Source: a virus
DNA: 20,162 bases
IMG/VR virus record: IMGVR_UViG_3300047321_000318
Span: 1-20,162 of that record
Direction: 5' to 3' (one strand)
The translations under genes were made by a program, and so were the position numbers. Below are positions 2,830-20,135 of this stretch, in pieces (position 1 is the stretch's first letter; each line of letters starts with the position of its first letter). A model generated the notes under the pieces. It was not told where the DNA came from and searched no databases. It saw only the letters and a list, made by a program, of their open reading frames with translations.

Positions 2830-3867
2830 CTATGCAGCAGCAAGCCTTGGTCTGAATCTAGATTGAAGGGAGTGCCTAAATTTTTCAATCGGCATCTCAA
2901 TTATGAAGTGCAAGCACGCCCCTGCAATAATCGCGCAGGCCATTCCCACGAAAAGCCATGAAACACTGTCATGATGTGCAGAGTTCAGCGTAATATAAAA
3001 ATACCAGTGAACCAAATATATCGGAAAACTCCACGCCCCGAGAAGAGTTATAGCTCTAGACCTCAGAAAACCGCCAATTATACCCATGCCATCTGCAAGG
3101 ACAATTATGAAGGTGGCCCAGAGAAAACTAAGAAAAACAAACTTGTCCATCAGCCATTTATCTATAGGCATTCCAAACAAAACATTGCGGACTATCGGAC
3201 TCGATGCAATCATAAGAATTATGACCAGGGATCCGACGACCGTAGCAGTCCTTGCAGTAACATACTTTCTGTAGAATTCCATGGATAGTGCGGCATAGCA
3301 TCCTAGCGTAAAGCTAGACAGGTACCAGTGGGTAGAGATACTGCTTTCCGGGGTATTCCAGTATGGCCACGCCAATTGCTGAGTAAGTATTAGCAAGGCC
3401 GAGGTAGTAGCTAGACCGGCCTGACCACTGAAAGATCTAGCTCTAATCAAAATAAATGCTATGACTGGAAGGAATACATAGAACTTGAACTCTACCGGAA
3501 TAGTCCATAAATGAGCAAATCCATTTCTAAATAGAATTGCGTCTTTCAGATCGGTTGTGGTAGTAATTCCTGCTGTACCCAAAAGATAATACAAAAGTGC
3601 GACAATTGAGAACAGCGGAATGATTCTTAGGGCTCGACCCACTGCATATGATCCAATTGAATACATAGAAAACCCAGACCTCTCAAATTTAGATGTCAGC
3701 AGGAATGCACTAAGGACGAAGAATAACCAAACACCAATTTTACCTGCGCCTACTAACGCTACGTATGATCCAGTTATAAATATCGCTACCGCGTGAACAC
3801 TGATCACAATCAAGCATGCGAGCCCCCTAATTCCGTCAGCACCCGAATAATGCGTACTTCTATCCAT
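2830..3867 (-). CDS. membrane acyltransferase, acyltransferase-3 family (putative O-antigen acetylase)
   Basis: 345 residues from the chosen ATG, with about ten hydrophobic membrane segments. The N-terminus carries the family hallmark: Arg14 in DGIRGLACLIVISVH with the probable catalytic His25. Near the C-terminus is SFPIYLVHWYFY, also typical. These enzymes move acyl groups, usually acetyl, from the cytoplasm onto surface glycans. In phages they are known to modify O-antigen and block superinfection; the substrate here is inferred. The ATG at 3867 has AGGTGG seven bases upstream; the ATG at 3888 (seven more residues) has GGAGG at a longer spacing. Codon and base use are clearly AT-richer than all neighbours, a sign of separate acquisition. 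It lies between the fibre chaperone and a strong terminator. Confidence 0.88.
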   Translation of the reverse strand: MDRSTHYSGADGIRGLACLIVISVHAVAIFITGSYVALVGAGKIGVWLFFVLSAFLLTSKFERSGFSMYSIGSYAVGRALRIIPLFSIVALLYYLLGTAGITTTTDLKDAILFRNGFAHLWTIPVEFKFYVFLPVIAFILIRARSFSGQAGLATTSALLILTQQLAWPYWNTPESSISTHWYLSSFTLGCYAALSMEFYRKYVTARTATVVGSLVIILMIASSPIVRNVLFGMPIDKWLMDKFVFLSFLWATFIIVLADGMGIIGGFLRSRAITLLGAWSFPIYLVHWYFYITLNSAHHDSVSWLFVGMACAIIAGACLHFIIEMPIEKFRHSLQSRFRPRLAAA

Positions 3868-3927
3868 AACCACCCCACCTAAAGTCATTTATTAAATCAT
3901 CCTCCAAGGTGAGGGCCAAGGTATTTT

Positions 3928-10003: not shown

Positions 10004-10650
10004 GAGGGCACCACCGTTCCAGCGTTGACCGATGCCTGACCCTGAGTGGCTTCCGTGCCGCTACCCAGCGTTGCGCTAACCGTACCGGTACCGGTATTGG
10101 AGATGATCGTGGGCTGCATGAAGTCGATCTGGAATATCCCGCCCAGTTCGGAGCGCTTATCCACCACGTTACGGACGCCCACGATCACCACATTCTTGTA
10201 GGTCTCCTTGGTGCCGACAAAATTCAGGAGCACCCCGGTAGCCTTGAGGTAGTGGAGCGCGTTCTTGGTTGTCGTCGAGCGGGTACTGGATGAGCTGGAG
10301 AGCGTTGCCCCCATGCCCAGGCCCAGCAGCGCGAGCGCCGTGGAACTGAGTTTGGAGGCGATGGCGCCAGCGGCCGCACCGATCAGCGTTGATCCTGCCG
10401 CGCTGGCCGCATTTGAGGCTGAGGCAGTCGCAACCTTGAATGGGTTATCACTGACCCCAACCGTCACCGTCAGCATAGTGGGAAACTGGATAGCATGGTC
10501 GGACGCGATTGCCCCGCTCTCCAGCGGGTACTGGGACAGCCGAGACGAGGCGTACTGCATTTCCGACAGCACCGCATCGAAGATCAGAGACGAGACGCCT
10601 TCGCCCCCCAGCGTCGGGACATTGTTGAGGAAGAGGGCTGCAATGCTCAT
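10000..10650 (-). CDS. Dit-like baseplate/tail protein
   Basis: 216 residues. The N-terminal part (LIFDAVLSEMQYASSRLSQY) and the second strand region (SDHAIQFPTMLTVTVGVSDN) resemble the Dit-like N-terminal domain that forms a ring at the end of the tube. A low-complexity Ala/Ser-rich linker at about 75-125 contains a hydrophobic run (LIGAAAGAIASKLSSTALAL), which looks like an amphipathic helix more than a membrane anchor here. The C-terminal half returns to beta structure (YKNVVIVGVRNVVDKRSELG). Start overlaps the tape measure stop by four bases. Function is from position and partial similarity. Confidence 0.7.
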   Translation of the reverse strand: MSIAALFLNNVPTLGGEGVSSLIFDAVLSEMQYASSRLSQYPLESGAIASDHAIQFPTMLTVTVGVSDNPFKVATASASNAASAAGSTLIGAAAGAIASKLSSTALALLGLGMGATLSSSSSTRSTTTKNALHYLKATGVLLNFVGTKETYKNVVIVGVRNVVDKRSELGGIFQIDFMQPTIISNTGTGTVSATLGSGTEATQGQASVNAGTVVPS

Positions 10651-12758
10651 TGGTCAAGATCCGTGCTCATGTGGGACATCGTGACCGTCATCTGGCCCTG
10701 AAGCTGCTCATTCACGGCACGCACCGCTTCGCTTGTAACGCGATGAGGGTCTGTCGATCCTCTGGCGTCGATATGGATCATATTGCCAGCCTGCGAGGCG
10801 TCCGGAGCGCCACCGGCATTCACGGTTGGCGGCGCAGGAGGATTGGCGACCATGTTGTAGGTGGACGGCACATCTGAGGGAAGACTGGCTGCCTTTGCGT
10901 TAGCGCCGGTGCTGATCGAGTTTTGCGCCTGGTAGGCATAGAGGATGCGGCGAGCCTCGTCCTCTTTGTTGTCTGCCGGACGCTCATACATATTGCGAAA
11001 GACCGAAGCGGCACTCGCCGCGTTTTTCGTCTTCAGGAGTGCCTTGCCAGCAGCCTTCTCCTTGTTTTGCAGTTCGTAGAGAATGAAATCCAACTGTTCT
11101 TTCTCGGATGAGCCGCGAATATCCTTGCCAAAGAAGTCCTTGAAGTCCTGCTGTCGCTCCGGGTGCCACTGAGCCAGGCCATATGCCTGCCCGTTGTCGC
11201 CCACAGCATCAACCCTCAGGCCGCTTTCTGCGGTGAGGTTCGCCGCGATACCAGATGCCTGCTCCGTGGAGTAGTTGTTGTCCATGAAGTACTTCATGAT
11301 CCGCCGCTGCGCGGCCGCCTGATCTTCGGGCATCAGGATGCCAGCAGGACGGCGGCCTCCATCAGCCCCGGGTGCGTATTCTGGGCGCAAGGGCTTCGTA
11401 ACATCATCATCGATATGGGCGCTTGGCATCTTGGCATACATGGCTTGCTTGGCTGAATCGTAGCCATGCTCCAGTAAATCGCGAACCATTGGGGCCTGAT
11501 TGCCCATTGCCCCGAAGTACCCCTTAATGGCCCCGGTATATGCCCCTACTGGACCATTCTTATCCCAGCCTTCCGATGCGCCTTGATAGGTACCTTTAGC
11601 GATGTCAACTAAGGGCATCCGGTCATGTACGAACGTGGAAACAGCATTTTTGACCTTCTCGTCCTTGAGCACCTCGGTCGCACCCTTGAGGTCTCCTTTG
11701 GACACCCGTTCGGCGAACTGGGTTATCCGGTCTGCGATTCCGCCTTGGGCGAACATACCGTCCACGCGCTGGACGAAGTTATCGAGCGACGGAAGGAATT
11801 CAGCCCCCAATTTATTGCGCAGTCGGTCGAAGTCTGCAGCAAGATCTACAAGCGAGTCCTCGAATCGTCGAGCATTCTCGACGTCCTGGTCGGTGTAAGT
11901 TGATCCGGCCTTGTTCACCTGCTGTATGCCGGCTCGGTAATCCTCGCCCACAGCCATGATTCCGGACTGGCTGAGGCCGAGCGCGGAGCCGATGTTTTGG
12001 CGCGATATGGGGTCGCGTGCATTGCGGATTTGCTTCTGGATGAGATCGACCACCTCCATGGTCGGTCTCTTGTAGGCATCAGCGAAATCAGCCGGTGAGG
12101 CGCCGTATCGAGCAATATCGACTGGCACCTGGCCGACAGCAGAGGCCATTTTCAGCTTTTGCGCAGCCTGCAATATCTGCGTGCCGACGTCATCTTCGCC
12201 GGTTACCTTCTTGCCGAAGCGGTTGAAGTTCTGAAAATCTGACTTCGACACGCCAAAGGTACTGGAACTCACTTCGGTGCTCAGCGCCCCATTGGCATAG
12301 GAGAAGGAATTGGCGGCAAGCCCACCCACCCCGGCCGCCATCAGGGCCAGCGGGCCGCCGCCGGCGAGCATGGAAAACATACTGCCAGAGAGCGGCCCGA
12401 GGCCTGTTGCCGCAGCGCCGCGCGAGAGAAGCGCAACCACCGACTGGGTTTCCTTGCGAAAGCTCGCCATCTGCTGGGTCGCACTGCCAAGGCGGCCCTG
12501 CAATACGCCGACCGAGCGCGGCACGCGCGTTACCGTCTTGTCGAACTTGTCGACCACCTGCTCCAGGCCTTTTGCGCTGGCGCCAGTCGCTGCTATGTTC
12601 TTGCCGACTTGATCGATGCCGGTCTTGCCACGGTCACGCGCTGCGCGGTTGATCGCGTTATCCAGCCCCGTTACCGCATTGGTACTCTCGGTGAAGCTTG
12701 CCTGGTCGACCGTTACACCCAGCTTTACCAGCAGCGCGTCGATGACTTCTTCGGACAT
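10647..12758 (-). CDS. tail tape measure protein with tail-lysozyme domain
   Basis: 703 residues. Residues 1-115 are helical and Gln/Lys-rich. Hydrophobic Gly/Ala segments at about 118-153 are as seen in many tape measures. A helical rod covers 190-440. A lysozyme-like domain lies at about 484-612 (phage tail lysozyme type): NYSTEQASGIAANLTAESGL places the probable catalytic Glu511, and QAYGLAQWHPERQQDF follows. This domain would open peptidoglycan during DNA or tube passage. At roughly 0.15 nm per residue the protein predicts a tail near 100 nm (family rule, inference). A GGAG ribosome site precedes the start. The gene follows the chaperone region, with the opposite-strand OB-fold gene inserted between. 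Confidence 0.92.
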   Translation of the reverse strand: MSEEVIDALLVKLGVTVDQASFTESTNAVTGLDNAINRAARDRGKTGIDQVGKNIAATGASAKGLEQVVDKFDKTVTRVPRSVGVLQGRLGSATQQMASFRKETQSVVALLSRGAAATGLGPLSGSMFSMLAGGGPLALMAAGVGGLAANSFSYANGALSTEVSSSTFGVSKSDFQNFNRFGKKVTGEDDVGTQILQAAQKLKMASAVGQVPVDIARYGASPADFADAYKRPTMEVVDLIQKQIRNARDPISRQNIGSALGLSQSGIMAVGEDYRAGIQQVNKAGSTYTDQDVENARRFEDSLVDLAADFDRLRNKLGAEFLPSLDNFVQRVDGMFAQGGIADRITQFAERVSKGDLKGATEVLKDEKVKNAVSTFVHDRMPLVDIAKGTYQGASEGWDKNGPVGAYTGAIKGYFGAMGNQAPMVRDLLEHGYDSAKQAMYAKMPSAHIDDDVTKPLRPEYAPGADGGRRPAGILMPEDQAAAQRRIMKYFMDNNYSTEQASGIAANLTAESGLRVDAVGDNGQAYGLAQWHPERQQDFKDFFGKDIRGSSEKEQLDFILYELQNKEKAAGKALLKTKNAASAASVFRNMYERPADNKEDEARRILYAYQAQNSISTGANAKAASLPSDVPSTYNMVANPPAPPTVNAGGAPDASQAGNMIHIDARGSTDPHRVTSEAVRAVNEQLQGQMTVTMSHMSTDLDQ

Positions 12759-12814
12759 TGTTCGCTCCGGGGGTAATGATAAGCTGCTGCTTTAACTGAC
12801 GCGGCAGTAGGCTA

Positions 12815-13222
12815 ATGAGAAGGATGAGACTCTTTGGTGCTCTTGGCGCCGCGCTATCGATACCGGTGCTATTCAGTATTTCGCCTGGATACGCGGCCAC
12901 GCCGGATGCTGCCAAAACCGTTCCGCTCCACAAGCTTCTTTCTGACTACGATAGGAACGAGGTGGCGGCGGACGGCCTCTACAAAGACCAGCAGGTCCGA
13001 ATCCGTGGACTGGTAACGAACATGGGATCGGTGTCAGGCGGCTTGTACCTGATACTGAAGGATTCGGGCGAAGGATCCGGACTAAAGCTCCAAGCTTTGT
13101 TCAGCCAGGACAGCCGAGAGCGCATCGCGAGCCTTTCAAAGGGGCAGGAGGTGAGCCTTCAGTGCCGGGTCGATCACTTGCTTATGAATCTGATGGCCGA
13201 TGGGTGCAGGTTTTTGGACTAG
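12815..13222 (+). CDS. secreted OB-fold protein, tRNA_anti-like family; moron gene
   Basis: 135 residues on the strand opposite to the tail operon. It starts with a basic N-terminus, a hydrophobic core and an AxA-type cleavage region (ISPGYAATPDAA), so export to the periplasm is likely. There is no lipobox cysteine. The mature part matches the OB-fold tRNA_anti-like pattern: LLSDYDRNEVAADGLYKDQQ, then VRIRGLVTNMG, LYLILKD, and SKGQEVSLQCRVDHLLMNLM to the end. Members are small envelope proteins of unclear role. The ATG at 12824 is an alternative start. It lies 56 bases from the divergent tape measure start and five bases from the convergent end of the frameshift product. Separate expression in the lysogen is inference. 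Confidence 0.82.
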   Translation: MRRMRLFGALGAALSIPVLFSISPGYAATPDAAKTVPLHKLLSDYDRNEVAADGLYKDQQVRIRGLVTNMGSVSGGLYLILKDSGEGSGLKLQALFSQDSRERIASLSKGQEVSLQCRVDHLLMNLMADGCRFLD

Positions 13223-13227
13223 CGCTC

Positions 13228-13817
13228 TCACCGCTGGCGCGCCGCATTCACCGCGCGCTCGTAGCTGCTCTCCAGTTCGTCCAGCACGCTGTGCATCTCG
13301 ATCACGTCACCGAGATCCAGCGTTCCATCGATCATCTGGTCATAGCGCGCCAGCGGCGCTGGGCAGGCGGCCGAGGCCACGCAGGGCCGCCACAGGAACC
13401 AGTTGGTCTTGCTTACGCTGCGCCCGCTGGCTCGCCGCTTTCTTGAGGGAGCAGCACGAAAAAACCCTTGAGGTTCTCCCGCAGCACGTTGGCGACCAGC
13501 AGATAGTAGAAGTGGATGTTGTCCTGGAACAGGTTCGGGCCGATGGGCAGAACCACGTTGCCCTGGCCGTCATCGCGCAGGATCAGGTCGGCAGCACCAT
13601 TGCGTAGCGCGAGCGTGGTCAGGCGCTGAATGGCGTCGTACGGCGCGCGCAGCAGGGCCATGACCAGTTCAGCGTCACCCGATGGGTTCTTGTCGCTCAG
13701 GAACGAGATCAGGCCGGTGTTGACGGCCAGGTGCAGCATTTCTTCTTGGGCCTTGGCCGGCGCGGTGGTGCCGCCGTATTCAACGCCGCCGATAGTCAGG
13801 GTAATGGAGCGAGCCAT
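13228..13817 (-). CDS. tail assembly chaperone, -1 frameshift fusion product (gpGT-like)
   Basis: If ribosomes slip back one base at the T TTT TTC site (13464-13458), translation leaves the 0 frame after residue 120 and continues for 76 codons to a TGA at 13228-13230, giving 196 residues. The extension reads as plausible protein (KTNWFLWRP, then LARYDQMIDGTLDLGDVIEM, then LDELESSYERAVNAARQR). It fills the space otherwise left empty before the OB-fold gene. Lambda G/GT and many other phages use this arrangement between the tube and tape measure genes. The longer form would recruit tube protein to the tape measure. The extension has no start codon with a ribosome site of its own. Confidence 0.82.
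13413..13817 (-). CDS. tail assembly chaperone, unshifted product (gpG-like)
   Basis: 134 residues ending at a TAA at 13413-13415. The start has GAGGAAT upstream. The protein begins with a beta segment (RSITLTIGGVEYGGTTAPAK) and then helices with EEMLHLAVNTGLISFLSD and the end region NIHFYYLLVANVLRENLKGF. It lies between the tube gene and the tape measure, the invariant place of tail chaperones. The major product would coat the tape measure during tail assembly and leave the mature tail. The last 14 residues after the slip site are specific to this short form. Confidence 0.82.
   Translation of the reverse strand: MARSITLTIGGVEYGGTTAPAKAQEEMLHLAVNTGLISFLSDKNPSGDAELVMALLRAPYDAIQRLTTLALRNGAADLILRDDGQGNVVLPIGPNLFQDNIHFYYLLVANVLRENLKGFFVLLPQESGEPAGAA
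13458..13464 (-). promoter_or_regulatory. ribosomal frameshift site T TTT TTC
   Basis: On the minus strand the 0 frame reads GGT TTT TTC GTG, giving the canonical X XXY YYZ heptamer T TTT TTC. Both tRNAs can re-pair after a one-base backward slip. Three bases later CTGCTCCC (13454-13447) can pair with GGGCGCAG (13425-13418) at seven of eight positions, a possible stimulating hairpin, although its spacing is shorter than usual. Confidence 0.75.
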
Positions 13818-13858: not shown

Positions 13859-14263
13859 TTAGACTTCTTCGGAGTCGTTGAACTCGAAGATGAACTGGTC
13901 GTCGGAGGCGTTGGTCTTGCCGCCGCGACCGATCTGGCCACGGTTCACCAGGATGCCGCTGTAGAACACCAGCGATTCACCAGCACCGGACTGACTGAAG
14001 GTGCCAAAGAAGTCGACCCGGGTTTTATCCAGGGCGATGATCTGGCGGGCTTCATCCGATCCGGGCAGCAAGTTGACGGTCAGACGCTTTGCGCGGGTGA
14101 CGTTATCCAGGCGCACGGCCAGACCGCCGGTACCGCGCTTGAGGGCAGAACGAGGCTCAATGTCCTCGATCACGATCGGCGGGTCGACGTCGCCAAATGA
14201 ACTGATGGTGATGCCGTTGATGGATAGGTTGGCGCCAGCGGCTCCGTAGTCGATCATTGCCAT
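13859..14263 (-). CDS. tail tube protein (DUF3277 / KPP10 ORF10-like)
   Basis: 134 residues, almost wholly beta. Visible stretches are LSINGITISSFGDVDPPIVI, RSALKRGTGGLAVRLDNVTR and, at the end, SDDQFIFEFND. These fit the DUF3277 structural family that follows the DUF3383 sheath gene in myophages such as KPP10. Hexamers would stack into the inner tube. GGAG precedes the start, and the gene follows the sheath by six bases and precedes the chaperone. Confidence 0.85.
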   Translation of the reverse strand: MAMIDYGAAGANLSINGITISSFGDVDPPIVIEDIEPRSALKRGTGGLAVRLDNVTRAKRLTVNLLPGSDEARQIIALDKTRVDFFGTFSQSGAGESLVFYSGILVNRGQIGRGGKTNASDDQFIFEFNDSEEV

Positions 14264-14269
14264 GAACTG

Positions 14270-15430
14270 TTACTCCACGTAGAGGCTGACAGGGATGAAG
14301 TGAGCGGCGCCATCGCGCAGCACGTAGATGTTCAGCACTGGGTACTGACGCTGCTGCCGTTCTGCCGTGGTCAGGCTCTCGACATCGGTTGGGTCGTTGT
14401 AGATGAAGTACCCATTGCTCAGGTACAGGTCGTTGCCGGTGTCCGGGTGAGTGATGTTGCCAGCACCCAGGAATCCGTTGTCGTAGTAGGTCTTGCACAC
14501 GTCACCTGCGGCGGCGATTGCGCCGGCGAAGTTCTTCGCGTCCAGGCCGCGCTTGGTCTGAGGCTGCACCAGCCAGTTGAACAGGCCCACCTGCAACGCA
14601 TTGACCAGCATGTCAACGCCGATCACATCGTCGATCCACTCACCGTTCGCCGATGGCGATTTGGTGTTCATCGACATGCAGCCGGTGGTGTTGCCGCTGG
14701 AAACGACCTTGGAGAAGTAGACGCAGTTCTTCTCTTTCAGCAGGCCAATGGCAGTGGCGGACAGGGAGTCGGCGGTAACGTTGGTCAGGTTCTGGTATTC
14801 GCCAGTCATGGCGGTGTTGCGGCCTTCGGGATTCCACTTGGTGAACTTGCCCGCCAGGGCGTTCATCGGGTAGCCCTGAGTCGCATCAGCCGTCAGGGTC
14901 GATGGTGCGCGGAAGCCTTGGAACACATGGCGAGCGCCCAGACCAGCAATGATCGACACCAGGTCGGTGGTCGATCCCTGCGTAACCGCAGACGAATCGC
15001 TGACCGATACCCATACCGGGCGGTTTTCGCTATCGGCCCAGGTGGCCAGCGCGGGAACGTTCGCGACGGTGATATCACCATTCTTGAAGAAGTGGTTGTA
15101 GCGCCAGATGCCCGAGGCCGCGAGCTGCGAGGCAACCACGGTAGGATCGACTCCGGTAGCCGACTTCATGAACACCGTGAAGACCGGCGAACGGGTCTTG
15201 TTGGCGAAGTACGGCGCGGCCAGCTTGTACAGCTCGGAAGCGGAGCCGAAGTCCGTGACTATGTCGCTCAGCGCCGTGTAGTCGCGATAGGTGTTGGCCG
15301 CAAACGTGACGCCGCTGGCCAGGTCAGTGAGGTCAGCAAACGCCACCGAACTGGTGAAGTCGGCGCCAGCAAGACCGGACGAAGAGATCGACACCGAAAT
15401 GGGAACGATGTTGGAGATGTCAACTGCCAT
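14270..15430 (-). CDS. contractile tail sheath protein (DUF3383)
   Basis: 386 residues. The N-terminus SNIVPISVSISSSGLAGADF and a following beta domain, the region YTALSDIVTDFGSASELYKL, the central part with GLGARHVFQGFRAPST, and a C-terminal domain with LSNGYFIYNDPTD, then AERQQRQYPVLNIYVLRDGA, fit the DUF3383 sheath family. The sheath surrounds the tube and contracts on infection, so this gene is the main evidence that the phage is a myovirus. Start at 15430 has AGGACA upstream and overlaps the neck gene by 11 bases. Confidence 0.9.
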   Translation of the reverse strand: MAVDISNIVPISVSISSSGLAGADFTSSVAFADLTDLASGVTFAANTYRDYTALSDIVTDFGSASELYKLAAPYFANKTRSPVFTVFMKSATGVDPTVVASQLAASGIWRYNHFFKNGDITVANVPALATWADSENRPVWVSVSDSSAVTQGSTTDLVSIIAGLGARHVFQGFRAPSTLTADATQGYPMNALAGKFTKWNPEGRNTAMTGEYQNLTNVTADSLSATAIGLLKEKNCVYFSKVVSSGNTTGCMSMNTKSPSANGEWIDDVIGVDMLVNALQVGLFNWLVQPQTKRGLDAKNFAGAIAAAGDVCKTYYDNGFLGAGNITHPDTGNDLYLSNGYFIYNDPTDVESLTTAERQQRQYPVLNIYVLRDGAAHFIPVSLYVE

Positions 15431-17452: not shown

Positions 17453-18154
17453 TCACAGACCGTCGAAGTACGCGGCGGCCTTTGGAATGCGCCATTCCAC
17501 GCCACCCGTACGGCAGATGGCAGGCACCTTGAAGTTGACGTTGTCGGCGGTGGCCGGCGCCAGGAAGCGCAGAGGCATCACGTCGTGGCCTTTCACCACG
17601 CGGATATCCTTCTTGTAGGTGACCAGGCGCTTGCTGCCGCTCTTGCCGGCCTTCTCCAGCAGGATGTCGTCCTGGAAGATCATGTCCGGGAAGTTCTGCT
17701 GCAAGAACATCAGGAACGTGTAGTTGCTGGCGTTACCGGTGTTGAGCAGGGTGCGCTTGAGCAGCAGGTAGATGCTTGGCGGCATCACGAACGCGGTCGG
17801 CACGTGGACGGTGTTGGTGTTGACCAGGTAGACCTGGTTGTATGCGTTGGAGAAGATGTCCAGCACGCCCTGAGCATCGCCAGCAGTTACCAGCGAAGCG
17901 ATGGTGCCGGCCACGTCCAGGCGCGGCACGTTCGAGCCGGTGTAGAGGCCTTCACCCACAGCCTGGGTTTTGCCGTTCGTGCTGGCGATCAGGCCGCCCT
18001 GCAGATAGATCTGGTTCAGGCCCTTCTCGACGCCGTCACGCACCGCGATCGCGCGCTCGTTGTCGATGTTGATACCATTGAGCTGCGCGTAACCGAGCTC
18101 CTCGATGCTGTACTCGTAGCCGAGCGCACCGGTCTGGATTTCATGGAAGCCCAT
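17453..18154 (-). pseudogene. major capsid protein, DUF2184 family, N-terminus deleted
   Basis: The remaining 233 codons show the conserved capsid region MGFHEIQTGALGYEYSIEEL, then INIDNERAIAVRDGVEKGLN, and later AFVMPPSIYLLLKRTLLNTG, which match the DUF2184 major capsid type of small myophages. Full members are around 300-340 residues, so roughly 80-100 N-terminal residues are missing. The frame reads on upstream to an ATG at 18187, but those first 11 codons are the reverse complement of phosphatase sequence and are not capsid. The break lies next to a truncated phosphatase in the opposite direction. A stable capsid from this piece is unlikely. Confidence 0.85.
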
Positions 18155-18167
18155 GGCCAAGCCATGG
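18151..18167. other. deletion junction between capsid and phosphatase genes
   Basis: CCATGG occurs twice, at 18151-18156 and 18162-18167. Capsid coding sense (minus strand) is convincing up to about 18154. Phosphatase coding sense (plus strand) is convincing from CCATGG at 18162 onward (PWFHPVRGNHDD, compare lambda PP PWFRAVRGNHEQ). The break therefore falls between them, probably at a short GC-rich microhomology. An assembly error would look the same. Confidence 0.75.
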
Positions 18168-18686
18168 TTCCACCCGGTGCGGGGCAACCATGACGACTAT
18201 GTCGTGCGCTTCGACACCTGCGACGTCGACAACTGGGTCTACAACGGCGGGTCATGGTTCGCCGGGATCAACCGTGACGAGCAGCACGAGTTCGCCGCGC
18301 AGTTCGCCTGTCTGCCGATCGCCATCGAAGTAGAAACGCCGCTGGGGCTGATCGGCATCGTTCATGCGGACTGCCCCTTCCCGTCCTGGGAGCAGATGCG
18401 CGCCGAACTCGAACAGCCGGAGAGCAACAAGCGGCTGAAGCTGGTGCAGAACAGCTGCATGTGGTCACGCAAGCGCGTCGATATGGTCGAGACCCACGGC
18501 GTCGAGGGTGTCCGCGCCATGGTTGTTGGCCACACGCCCATGAAATACCCGGCAGTTCTCGGCAACGTCCACCACATCGACACCGGTGGCTGGATGCCAG
18601 ATCGCGGCTATTTCACCCTGCTGGACCTGCATACCCTCAAAACCATCCCCGCCACCCGTCCAGCGCTGAGCAAGGACTGGGATTAA
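18159..18686 (+). pseudogene. lambda PP-like serine/threonine phosphatase, N-terminus deleted
   Basis: About 175 residues remain of a protein that is 221 residues in lambda. The visible PPP-family blocks are PVRGNHDDY (metal and catalytic His), IVHADCPF, VVGHTPMKYP and IDTGGWMP, in the right order. The first two metal-binding blocks (the DxH motif and GDxVDRG), which lie before RGNH, are gone, so the enzyme cannot be active. The reading frame opens at the ATG at 18153, a fortuitous start without a ribosome site. In the intact phage it would belong to the plus-strand early genes near the integrase. Confidence 0.88.
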
Positions 18687-18694
18687 CCCCTTCT

Positions 18695-18710
18695 GCCGCC
18701 ACTGGGCGGC
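18695..18710. other. GC-rich hairpin before the DUF4224 gene
   Basis: GCCGCC and GGCGGC form a perfect six-pair stem with loop ACTG just after the phosphatase stop. No T-run follows on either strand, so it is not a good intrinsic terminator. It may affect the RNA near the next start or be chance. Confidence 0.35.
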
Positions 18711-18723
18711 CATGGAGCACCCA

Positions 18724-18933
18724 ATGAGCTCTATCGAGTTCCTGAGTCACGAGGAAGTGTGCCAGCTCACAGGAGCGCGCACCAAGGCCGGCCAGATCAC
18801 CAATCTCAAGAGAAATGGCATTCGGCACACAATTAAGGTAAATGGCTGGCCGAGCGTGACGGCGAACGCAGTGACGGCGGTCGGTCCGGTTCAGCCAGAA
18901 ACGCCATCATGGAAATCACGAAAGGCAGGGTGA
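18724..18933 (+). CDS. DUF4224-type small protein beside the integrase (possible excisionase)
   Basis: 69 residues from the ATG at 18724, with GGAG nine bases upstream; an ATG at 18712 would add four residues. The sequence IEFLSHEEVCQLTGARTKAG, then QITNLKRNGIRHTIKVNGWP matches the DUF4224 type, a small helix-turn-helix-like protein that commonly lies before phage integrases in Pseudomonas and related bacteria. Its stop is one base before the integrase start, so the two are probably co-translated. A role as recombination directionality factor is inferred from size and position. Confidence 0.8.
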   Translation: MSSIEFLSHEEVCQLTGARTKAGQITNLKRNGIRHTIKVNGWPSVTANAVTAVGPVQPETPSWKSRKAG

Positions 18934-18934
18934 T

Positions 18935-19966
18935 ATGGGAAGAAGGCCCAGCAAGCCGGGATCAATCGCCCGGATGCGCGAGAGAAAGAAGGCAAGCGGC
19001 CGGACGTTCTATTACTACGACGCCGGCGGTAAGCCGCGTAAAGAAATACCGCTTGGGTCCGATTATGGACTCGCTGTCATGAAATATGCGGAACTGGAAC
19101 GCGATCGGACTGCTACAACGCTAGTGAGCCAGGTCATCACGGTCCGCTACGTCGCCGAGAAGTACCTGGTGGAGGTGGTACCGACCAAAGGGGCAGCCAC
19201 GCAAAAGGACAACATCAGGGAAATGAAGAAGCTCATGGAGTTTTTCGACGACCCGCCTGCACCACTGGAAAGCATCCGCCCCGTCGATGTTCGGCAATAC
19301 CTCACTTATCGGAAGTCGGCACCTGTGCGGGCCAATCGGGAAAAGGCGCTATTGAGTGCAATGTGGAACTTCGCTCGGGATGTCGGATACACGGCACTGG
19401 CTAACCCGTGCGCAGGCATCAAGGGCAACCGGGAGGCTGGCCGGGACGTATATGTCGAGGATGAGCTTTACAAGCTGGTTTACGACAAGGCCGAAGTTGG
19501 ACTGCAGGATGCGATGGATCTTGCCTACCTGACCGGGCAGCGAGTAACCGATATGCGGCTCATGGATGAGCGCGACGTTCGCAGCGGGCAGATATGGGTC
19601 AAGCAAGGGAAGACGGAAACCAAGCGACGGATCGAGATCATCGGGGAGTTGAAGGGGGTGATCGATAGGATCATGTCTAGGAAGGCCGGGCACAAGGTCA
19701 GGTCAACGCGACTGATCGTGACAGAGGATGGTACACCAATGAGCGCTGCCATGTTGAGGGGGCGATTCGACCTTGCCAGGGAGGCGGCCGGGGTGGACAA
19801 GAAGCTGTTCCAATTGCGCGACCTGAGGGCCAAAGCCGGTACGGACAAGGCCGAATCAAGCGGCGACATCATGAAGGCCAGAGATCAACTTGGGCATACT
19901 ACCGTCGGAATGACCGAGCAATACATACGGGAGCGAAAAGGTAAGAAAGTGACTCCGACAAAATGA
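18935..19966 (+). CDS. int: site-specific tyrosine recombinase (phage integrase)
   Basis: 343 residues. The N-terminal part (1-60) is an arm-binding-like domain rich in Arg and Lys. Residues 66-155 are the helical core-binding domain. The catalytic domain follows with Arg203 (TGQRVTDM), a Lys near 224-230, LRDLRAKAG (Arg295, Arg298), LGHTT (His321) and the nucleophile Tyr330 (TEQYIRER). The box usually written HxxR reads RxxR here, a common variant in this group. It inserts the phage at the tRNA-Leu attB. The gene ends 41 bases before the long identical repeat at 20008. It is complete, so excision of the remnant is possible in principle. Confidence 0.95.
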   Translation: MGRRPSKPGSIARMRERKKASGRTFYYYDAGGKPRKEIPLGSDYGLAVMKYAELERDRTATTLVSQVITVRYVAEKYLVEVVPTKGAATQKDNIREMKKLMEFFDDPPAPLESIRPVDVRQYLTYRKSAPVRANREKALLSAMWNFARDVGYTALANPCAGIKGNREAGRDVYVEDELYKLVYDKAEVGLQDAMDLAYLTGQRVTDMRLMDERDVRSGQIWVKQGKTETKRRIEIIGELKGVIDRIMSRKAGHKVRSTRLIVTEDGTPMSAAMLRGRFDLAREAAGVDKKLFQLRDLRAKAGTDKAESSGDIMKARDQLGHTTVGMTEQYIRERKGKKVTPTK

Positions 19967-19996
19967 ATTGCGGACCAACTTTTAAATTGCGGACCA
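19967..19996. repeat. two direct repeats after int, candidate arm-type sites
   Basis: ATTGCGGACCA occurs at 19967-19977 and again at 19986-19996, start to start 19 bases (about two helical turns). They fill the space between the int stop and the att core. Related copies lie inside attL at 443-452 (inverted) and 504-515. They are the natural candidates for the sites bound by the integrase N-terminal domain. Confidence 0.55.
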
Positions 19997-20106
19997 GATA
20001 GAAGTTTGATTTTACTTGAGGACAGCAGCCTAACTGCTTGATTTTGAATGGTGCCCGAAGCCGGAATCGAACCGGCACGCCCTTACGAGCGGGGGATTTT
20101 AAGTCC
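19987..20106. repeat. attR: attR: right copy of the attachment repeat
   Basis: This is the partner of 281-400 at a constant offset of 19706 bases. The last 99 bases differ at one position; the first 21 are similar but diverged. The identical part ends at 20106 in the middle of the tRNA (anticodon region), after which the right copy continues with the host tRNA 5' half. After integration the phage copy restores a full tRNA-Leu. Confidence 0.9.
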
Positions 20107-20135
20107 CATGCGTCTACCAGTTTCGCCATTCGGGC
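20049..20135 (-). tRNA. tRNA-Leu (anticodon UAA)
   Basis: 87 nt on the minus strand starting GCCCGAA and ending TTCGGGC plus encoded ACCA. The acceptor stem pairs GCCCGAA with TTCGGGC. D-loop GCGAAACTGGTAGACGC, anticodon stem-loop GGGACTTAAAATCCC with TAA in the loop, a long variable arm (CCGCTCGTAAGGGCG region) typical of leucine tRNA, and T-loop GGTTCGATTCC are all present. It is intact, its 3' 58 nt being within the att repeat. It is the insertion site of the prophage. Confidence 0.96.

Follow-up and report, generated by a model that had tools for sequence, protein, structure and literature searches.

Organization of the tail locus

The window, by which we mean the whole 20,162-nt stretch of DNA analyzed, corresponds to the tail region of a Pseudomonas-type myoprophage, with the tail genes on the minus strand, and the named genomes closest to it are those of Pseudomonas. 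The tail sheath gene (DUF3383; 14270-15430, minus strand) was matched by PF11863 (5.6e-24) and by PHROG 205, a tail sheath family (1e-51), a context that indicates a contractile tail. Placed after it is the tail tube gene (13859-14263, minus strand), which was matched by PHROG 280 (virion structural protein, 1e-16). There follows a short gene encoding a 134-aa protein (13413-13817, minus strand), which matched PHROG 15850 (6e-26) and is, also by its position and predicted fold, the putative counterpart of lambda gpG, i.e., the short form of a tail assembly chaperone (TAC-N). The tape measure gene (10647-12758, minus strand) was matched by PHROG 9570 (tape measure, 1e-40) and contains a tail lysozyme domain (Phage_lysozyme2, 7.7e-29), and baseplate genes are also present in the tail module. 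The order of the genes is sheath, tube, chaperone, and tape measure, and the one gene that intervenes is a cargo gene on the opposite strand (12815-13222); the short gene sits between the tail tube and the tape measure, as in systems of the lambda G/GT type.

The cargo gene, on the plus strand relative to the minus-strand tail genes, encodes a protein with a signal peptide and an OB-fold (tRNA_anti-like, 1.9e-14), and it also matched PHROG 8545, labeled 'superinfection exclusion Sie-like' (1.4e-7). Comparison of the window with L004, L005, L006, L013, L015, L018, and L063 showed that the gap that separates the chaperone extension from the tape measure gene (12759-13227) is a cargo hotspot holding different genes from relative to relative. 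The secreted OB-fold protein of the window is replaced by a Gp49-like toxin and an HTH antitoxin in L006, a zinc-ribbon protein in L013, Arc and KilA-N proteins in L018, an addiction antidote in L063, and proteins without matches in L004 and in L005/L015. Opposite-strand genes flank the chaperone gene on either side in named phages as well.

Two other parts of the window were noted. At 17453-20135, a capsid gene is followed by a phosphoesterase fragment, a DUF4224 gene, an integrase gene, and tRNA-Leu(taa) (20049-20135); the integrase gene neighbors the capsid gene, and no terminase, portal, or repressor gene is present. This arrangement resembles a prophage remnant or else an emerging tail-only element. 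An acyltransferase gene (2830-3888; Acyl_transf_3, 7e-25) lies within the tail-lysis region and is possibly an O-antigen modifying lysogenic-conversion gene.

The short gene product is a predicted tail assembly chaperone

Phage_TAC_15 (PF21822) gave 17.5 bits for the window's protein, against a cut-off of 22, and matched 38 of the 47 members of the family at E<=0.01 (best, 7.8e-26). PHROG 1613, a chaperone family, was matched by 13 family members. An AlphaFold2 model of the short form (pLDDT 88) consisted of a beta hairpin and helices. A PDB search by sequence returned nothing significant, and the top PDB fold match of the model was the HK97 tail assembly chaperone (2OB9), a weak match (E 0.14, probability 0.66, TM-score 0.34). 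Among predicted viral structures, the model matched named tail assembly chaperones, including the PhiPLPE homologue and the Moogle 'tape measure chaperone'. On these profile and structure matches, the 134-aa gene is assigned as a predicted tail assembly chaperone gene.

A separate observation concerns PDB 5IR0, ORF19 of a Vibrio cholerae PICI-like element. Its fold matched that of the chaperone weakly (E 0.89; by target, TM up to 0.59), and when the chaperone profile was compared with PDB sequences it was the sole match (E 0.065); ORF19 is perhaps a satellite-encoded mimic of a tail chaperone.

A slippery heptamer and an open -1 frame at the end of the chaperone gene

The chaperone ORF (13817-13413, minus strand) reads ...AAG GGT TTT TTC GTG... 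near its end, with T_TTT_TTC in phase and TTT and TTC as the 0-frame codons. In the AlphaFold2 model these slip codons lie near the end of the last long helix, and the 0-frame tail is disordered. The original prediction had placed a slippery heptamer 14 codons before the chaperone stop and a -1 frame open for 76 codons beyond it, and direct reading bore out both: the heptamer lies at 13464-13458 in the right phase, the 0-frame stop is TAA at 13415-13413, and the -1 frame runs for 76 codons past the two slip codons to TGA at 13230-13228. This extension (13228-13457, minus strand) accounts for a stretch that otherwise has no gene, and its stop codon lies 5 nt from the end of the opposite-strand cargo gene.

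Across 4,887 codon positions in the genes of the module, T_TTT_TTC was the sole in-phase heptamer with TTTTTT or AAAAAA, and codon usage in the module would encode Gly-Phe-Phe as GGT TTT TTC in 2.7% of cases. The -1 frame stayed open in 8.5% of dinucleotide shuffles of the stretch. Its openness by itself is not remarkable and is weak evidence, and we set it aside as an argument for frameshifting.

The extension evolves as a protein in the -1 frame

The extension matched PHROG 4364 (3.1e-15), with the match starting at the NWFLWRPC motif, and DUF6889 (PF21829; 4.7e-5, 23.5 bits, cut-off 23.9); as a T-like C-terminal domain it would correspond to the second part of a fusion. All 47 family members matched PHROG 4364, and 34 of the 47 matched DUF6889 at E<=0.01 (best, 2.3e-20). 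A predicted structure of the extension alone reached a pLDDT of 69, too low for a fold search.

We compared the region beyond the chaperone stop among seven close relatives. The -1 frame had a pN/pS ratio of 0.167, whereas the two remaining frames gave 1.96 and 5.46, and pairwise substitutions fell 508:135:78 at -1-frame codon positions 3:1:2. By this ratio and the PHROG 4364 match, the -1 extension is under protein-level selection, as in lambda G/GT-type systems; the original prediction had described it as a credible protein. In the chaperone frame, pS was 0.25, 0.18, and 0.35 over codons 113-133 versus about 0.5-0.8 elsewhere. This drop in synonymous change (13416-13481, minus strand) was confined to the slip site, with the sequence GGGAG ~11 nt upstream of the heptamer, and the overlap of the two frames.

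The extension might instead be a separate small gene, translated independently from its own start codon. Many GenBank records annotate it in this way, among them those of PhiPLPE (gp49), ZF40 (ZF40gp55), and CP-T1 (CP-T1gp55), where it is a short ORF of its own; in some relatives, TTG or GTG precedes the conserved Trp at a distance of 2-22 codons. However, the annotated ORFs differ in their starts and often lack the motif. In the window, the -1 frame contains none of ATG, GTG, TTG, CTG, ATT, ATC, or ATA from its last upstream stop (13570) up to the conserved Trp, and therefore a separately started small protein would lose the most conserved motif. The same holds more widely, since the window and most relatives have no ATG, GTG, or TTG before this motif in the -1 frame and an independent start would cut off NWFLWRPC. 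A separate gene also leaves unexplained the covarying heptamer found 10-30 codons before the stop (see below), and we regard this alternative as very unlikely.

The two-frame arrangement in relatives

A tblastn search with the extension identified 109 phage records, with alignments mostly starting at the slip codons. The matches include Klebsiella Jedunavirus and phages of Vibrio, Edwardsiella, Pectobacterium, Iodobacter, and Psychrobacter. Scans of viral contigs and bacterial genomes added loci in Pseudomonas, Yersinia, Pectobacterium, and Prodigiosinella. Of 398 Pseudomonas genomes, 12 held the locus, and in one search DUF6889 was rare among 369 genomes of one bacterial class. A DNA-level search gave no match in phage records and none in plasmids. 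One locus (L124) fell below the cut-off and was left out, and a Chitinophagaceae MAG (L027) was dropped as a family member, since only 20 residues matched and no chaperone lay beside them.

In 46 profiled relatives, a homologue of the extension follows the same gene in the -1 frame. Wherever the chaperone gene of a locus is complete, the extension comes after it in that frame, as it does in every tested member of DUF6889/PHROG 4364 with an intact locus, and in all relatives the frame is free of stops from the site to the conserved motif. These results suggest that DUF6889/PHROG 4364 is the C-terminal domain of these chaperones, encoded by frameshifting.

A second Yersinia prophage (L122) holds a more distant member of DUF6889 (47 bits), in another frame behind a chaperone-like gene. 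The protein letters at the overlap (GNFL / GKFF) suggest A_AAT_TTT or T_TTT_TTG as its candidate slip site.

Covariation of the slip heptamer

At 80 of 80 distinct sites, the heptamer was in phase and followed X_XXY_YYZ, X being T, C, G, or A; these sites were located by heptamer search, and nearly all fall at one aligned Phe/Trp position where the last helix ends. In two remote loci (L109 and L117), the heptamer lies one to four codons off the aligned position. The 0-frame triplets were GAT TTT TTC (23 sites), GGC CCT TTT (16), GGC CCT TTC (12), AGC CCT TTC (9), GGT TTT TTC (6), GAT TTT TTT (6), GCC CCT TTC (2), and AGT TTT TTT (2), together with GGG GGT TTT, GGA AAT TTT, TTG GGA AAT, and GCA AAT TTT (1 each). 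The base before the slip codon covaries with the slip codon, giving GGT TTT, GAT TTT, GGC CCT, AGC CCT, GGG GGT, and GGA AAT, and the third base of the preceding codon always matches the change in the first slip codon, although it is synonymous for Gly. On the tree of fusion proteins, the letter X changed at least five times. The heptamer stays 10-30 codons before the stop across relatives, and the heptamer class is conserved across the 80 sites, as in lambda G/GT-type systems. Judged from these alignments, the site is evolving as a slip site would.

The six T's in a row at the window's site also raise slippage of RNA polymerase, by which a mixed mRNA pool, rather than the ribosome, would give the fusion; long poly-A/T runs do cause transcriptional slippage, but the runs known to do so are longer (A, n>7; T, n>8) (PMC3711429). 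This alternative is disfavored because relatives use C_CCT_TTC, G_GGT_TTT, and A_AAT_TTT at the same place, without a long homopolymer. The codon-phased X_XXY_YYZ pattern is, moreover, what slippage by two tRNAs predicts, and a transcriptional origin is highly improbable.

Retention of the heptamer in homologues held at the 80 distinct sites and failed at five loci in two divergent lineages. These exceptions are Psychrobacter phage pOW20-A (L115) and four Pseudomonas loci (L133-L136), which have GGT TTT ATA, GAT TTT ACC, or GAT TTT TCC in place of a full heptamer; they keep the P-site half, T_TTT, and the extension. Given these loci, tandem slippage, as predicted from sequence, is not universal in the chaperone family. 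A tentative and rather doubtful reading is that the five loci shift -1 by P-site re-pairing alone, in which case slippage within the family would range naturally from tandem to single-tRNA at a single aligned position and PHROG 4364/DUF6889 would be made only by frameshifting. The covarying heptamers, in which T, C, G, or A occupies the same aligned place, offer a clean natural experiment on the requirements of bacterial -1 slip sites.

That the two frames reflect a frame error or decay, either an indel in a once continuous gene or an extension no longer translated in an apparently incomplete prophage, is scarcely credible: the record does resemble a prophage remnant (integrase beside the capsid gene; no terminase, portal, or repressor), but independent genomes and phages have the same arrangement at identities from 98% down to about 30%, the extension is constrained in the window's close group (the pN/pS of 0.167 given above), and no single continuous reading frame through the region was found among the loci examined.

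Stimulatory signals

The original prediction had also proposed a stem just downstream of the slip site, and this part did not stand. Seven pairs of a stem are possible, but the four segments that we folded were no more stable than shuffled sequences (z -0.20, 0.47, -0.30, and 1.11), and in six relatives 59.5% of cells pair, with no compensatory change. The proposed stem is at chance level. RNAalifold gave only weak consensus pairs, which fall on invariant columns and are uninformative, and no conserved downstream structure of the classical stem or pseudoknot kind was found in the window and six relatives. In some Yersinia-type relatives (the C_CCT_TTT group), the downstream segment folds better than shuffles (mean z -2.85), a value confounded by relatedness and coding.

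Upstream of the slip site, GGGAG was kept in five of six aligned relatives. Anti-SD pairing upstream of the heptamer was -7.4 kcal/mol in the window, with a rank of 0.05 among synonymous shuffles, and the rank was 0.05-0.1 in five of six of the window's group. A Shine-Dalgarno-like signal was absent in DFF lineages. GGGAG is a weak candidate for a Shine-Dalgarno-like stimulator in the window's lineage. It resembles the dnaX-type upstream stimulator (PMC3711429), but GGGAG is missing from other lineages. Some tailed phages seem to shift frame without any stimulator (PMC5009743).

A probable frameshift that would yield a chaperone fusion

Taken together, the conserved and covarying heptamer, the codon-like evolution of the -1 frame, the lack of an alternative start, the family matches, and the position of the gene sustain the central claim of the original prediction, a -1 frameshift that produces a tail chaperone fusion. 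The fusion is very probably made by programmed ribosomal frameshifting of the lambda G/GT type. Most ribosomes would stop at 13415-13413 and release the 134-aa chaperone (TAC-N), and a minority would slip back one base on T_TTT_TTC, with tRNA-Phe in the P and A sites re-pairing with TTT TTT, and continue in the -1 frame to give a 196-aa fusion (TAC-NC).

In lambda, many short copies lie on the tape measure, and few long copies carry a C-terminal domain that engages the tube protein (PMC5009743). By analogy, the tape measure protein would be coated by many short copies, and the few long ones would recruit tail tube subunits through their C-terminal domain. The occurrence and efficiency of slippage are inferred, as are the roles of both products, in which, as in lambda, the short form would bind the tape measure and the extension the tube.

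Annotation of the extension and comparison with known systems

Frameshifting by -1 in tail chaperones is already known across the long-tailed phages (PMC5009743) and, as of late, in other myovirus families (PMC12846349). In the 17 phage regions inspected, the frameshift was marked as a joined gene in none; the records annotate the extension as no gene, as hypothetical, or, once, as a 'tetracycline resistance leader peptide'. That last label, in full 'tetracycline resistance leader peptide, anti-defence mechanism protein', is in phage vB_KsaM-C1 (L111:2576-2728) and is a misannotation. The paper describing ZF40, phiPLPE, and CP-T1 does not mention a frameshift (PMC3391216), and no mention of DUF6889 was found in the literature searched. 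Database entries for PF21829 (DUF6889) and PHROG 4364, which the extension and its relatives match, give unknown function and no hint of a frameshift origin. What is new here is the link of DUF6889/PHROG 4364 to a predicted frameshift product, together with the covarying heptamer series; the type of mechanism is already known. A stretch without an annotated gene is thereby explained, and a widespread 'unknown' family, DUF6889/PHROG 4364, would gain a putative function as the C-terminal part of a myovirus tail assembly chaperone.

Several known systems resemble the locus. P2-type E/E' likewise belongs to a contractile-tailed phage and has a T-run heptamer. The P2 slip heptamer is T_TTT_TTG. In contrast to E/E', the window's extension belongs to another family (PHROG 4364), and the window's relatives also use C, G, and A heptamers. 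With lambda G/GT (PMC5009743), the window shares the tube/tape-measure position, a slip site near the 3' end of the short gene, the -1 direction, and a short form with a predicted long fusion, whereas the slip heptamer differs. HK97 provides the top PDB fold match of the short form (2OB9), but the structural score is weak and HK97 is a siphovirus; HK97-like chaperones showed 6-7% frameshifting in experiments (PMC3711429). The chaperone loci of Vandenendeviridae and Andersonviridae (phage Adele, Moogle; PMC12846349) share with the window a myovirus tail chaperone and a predicted, conserved -1 frameshift on a T run; those loci use GTTTTT, whereas the window's family uses full X_XXY_YYZ heptamers of several kinds.
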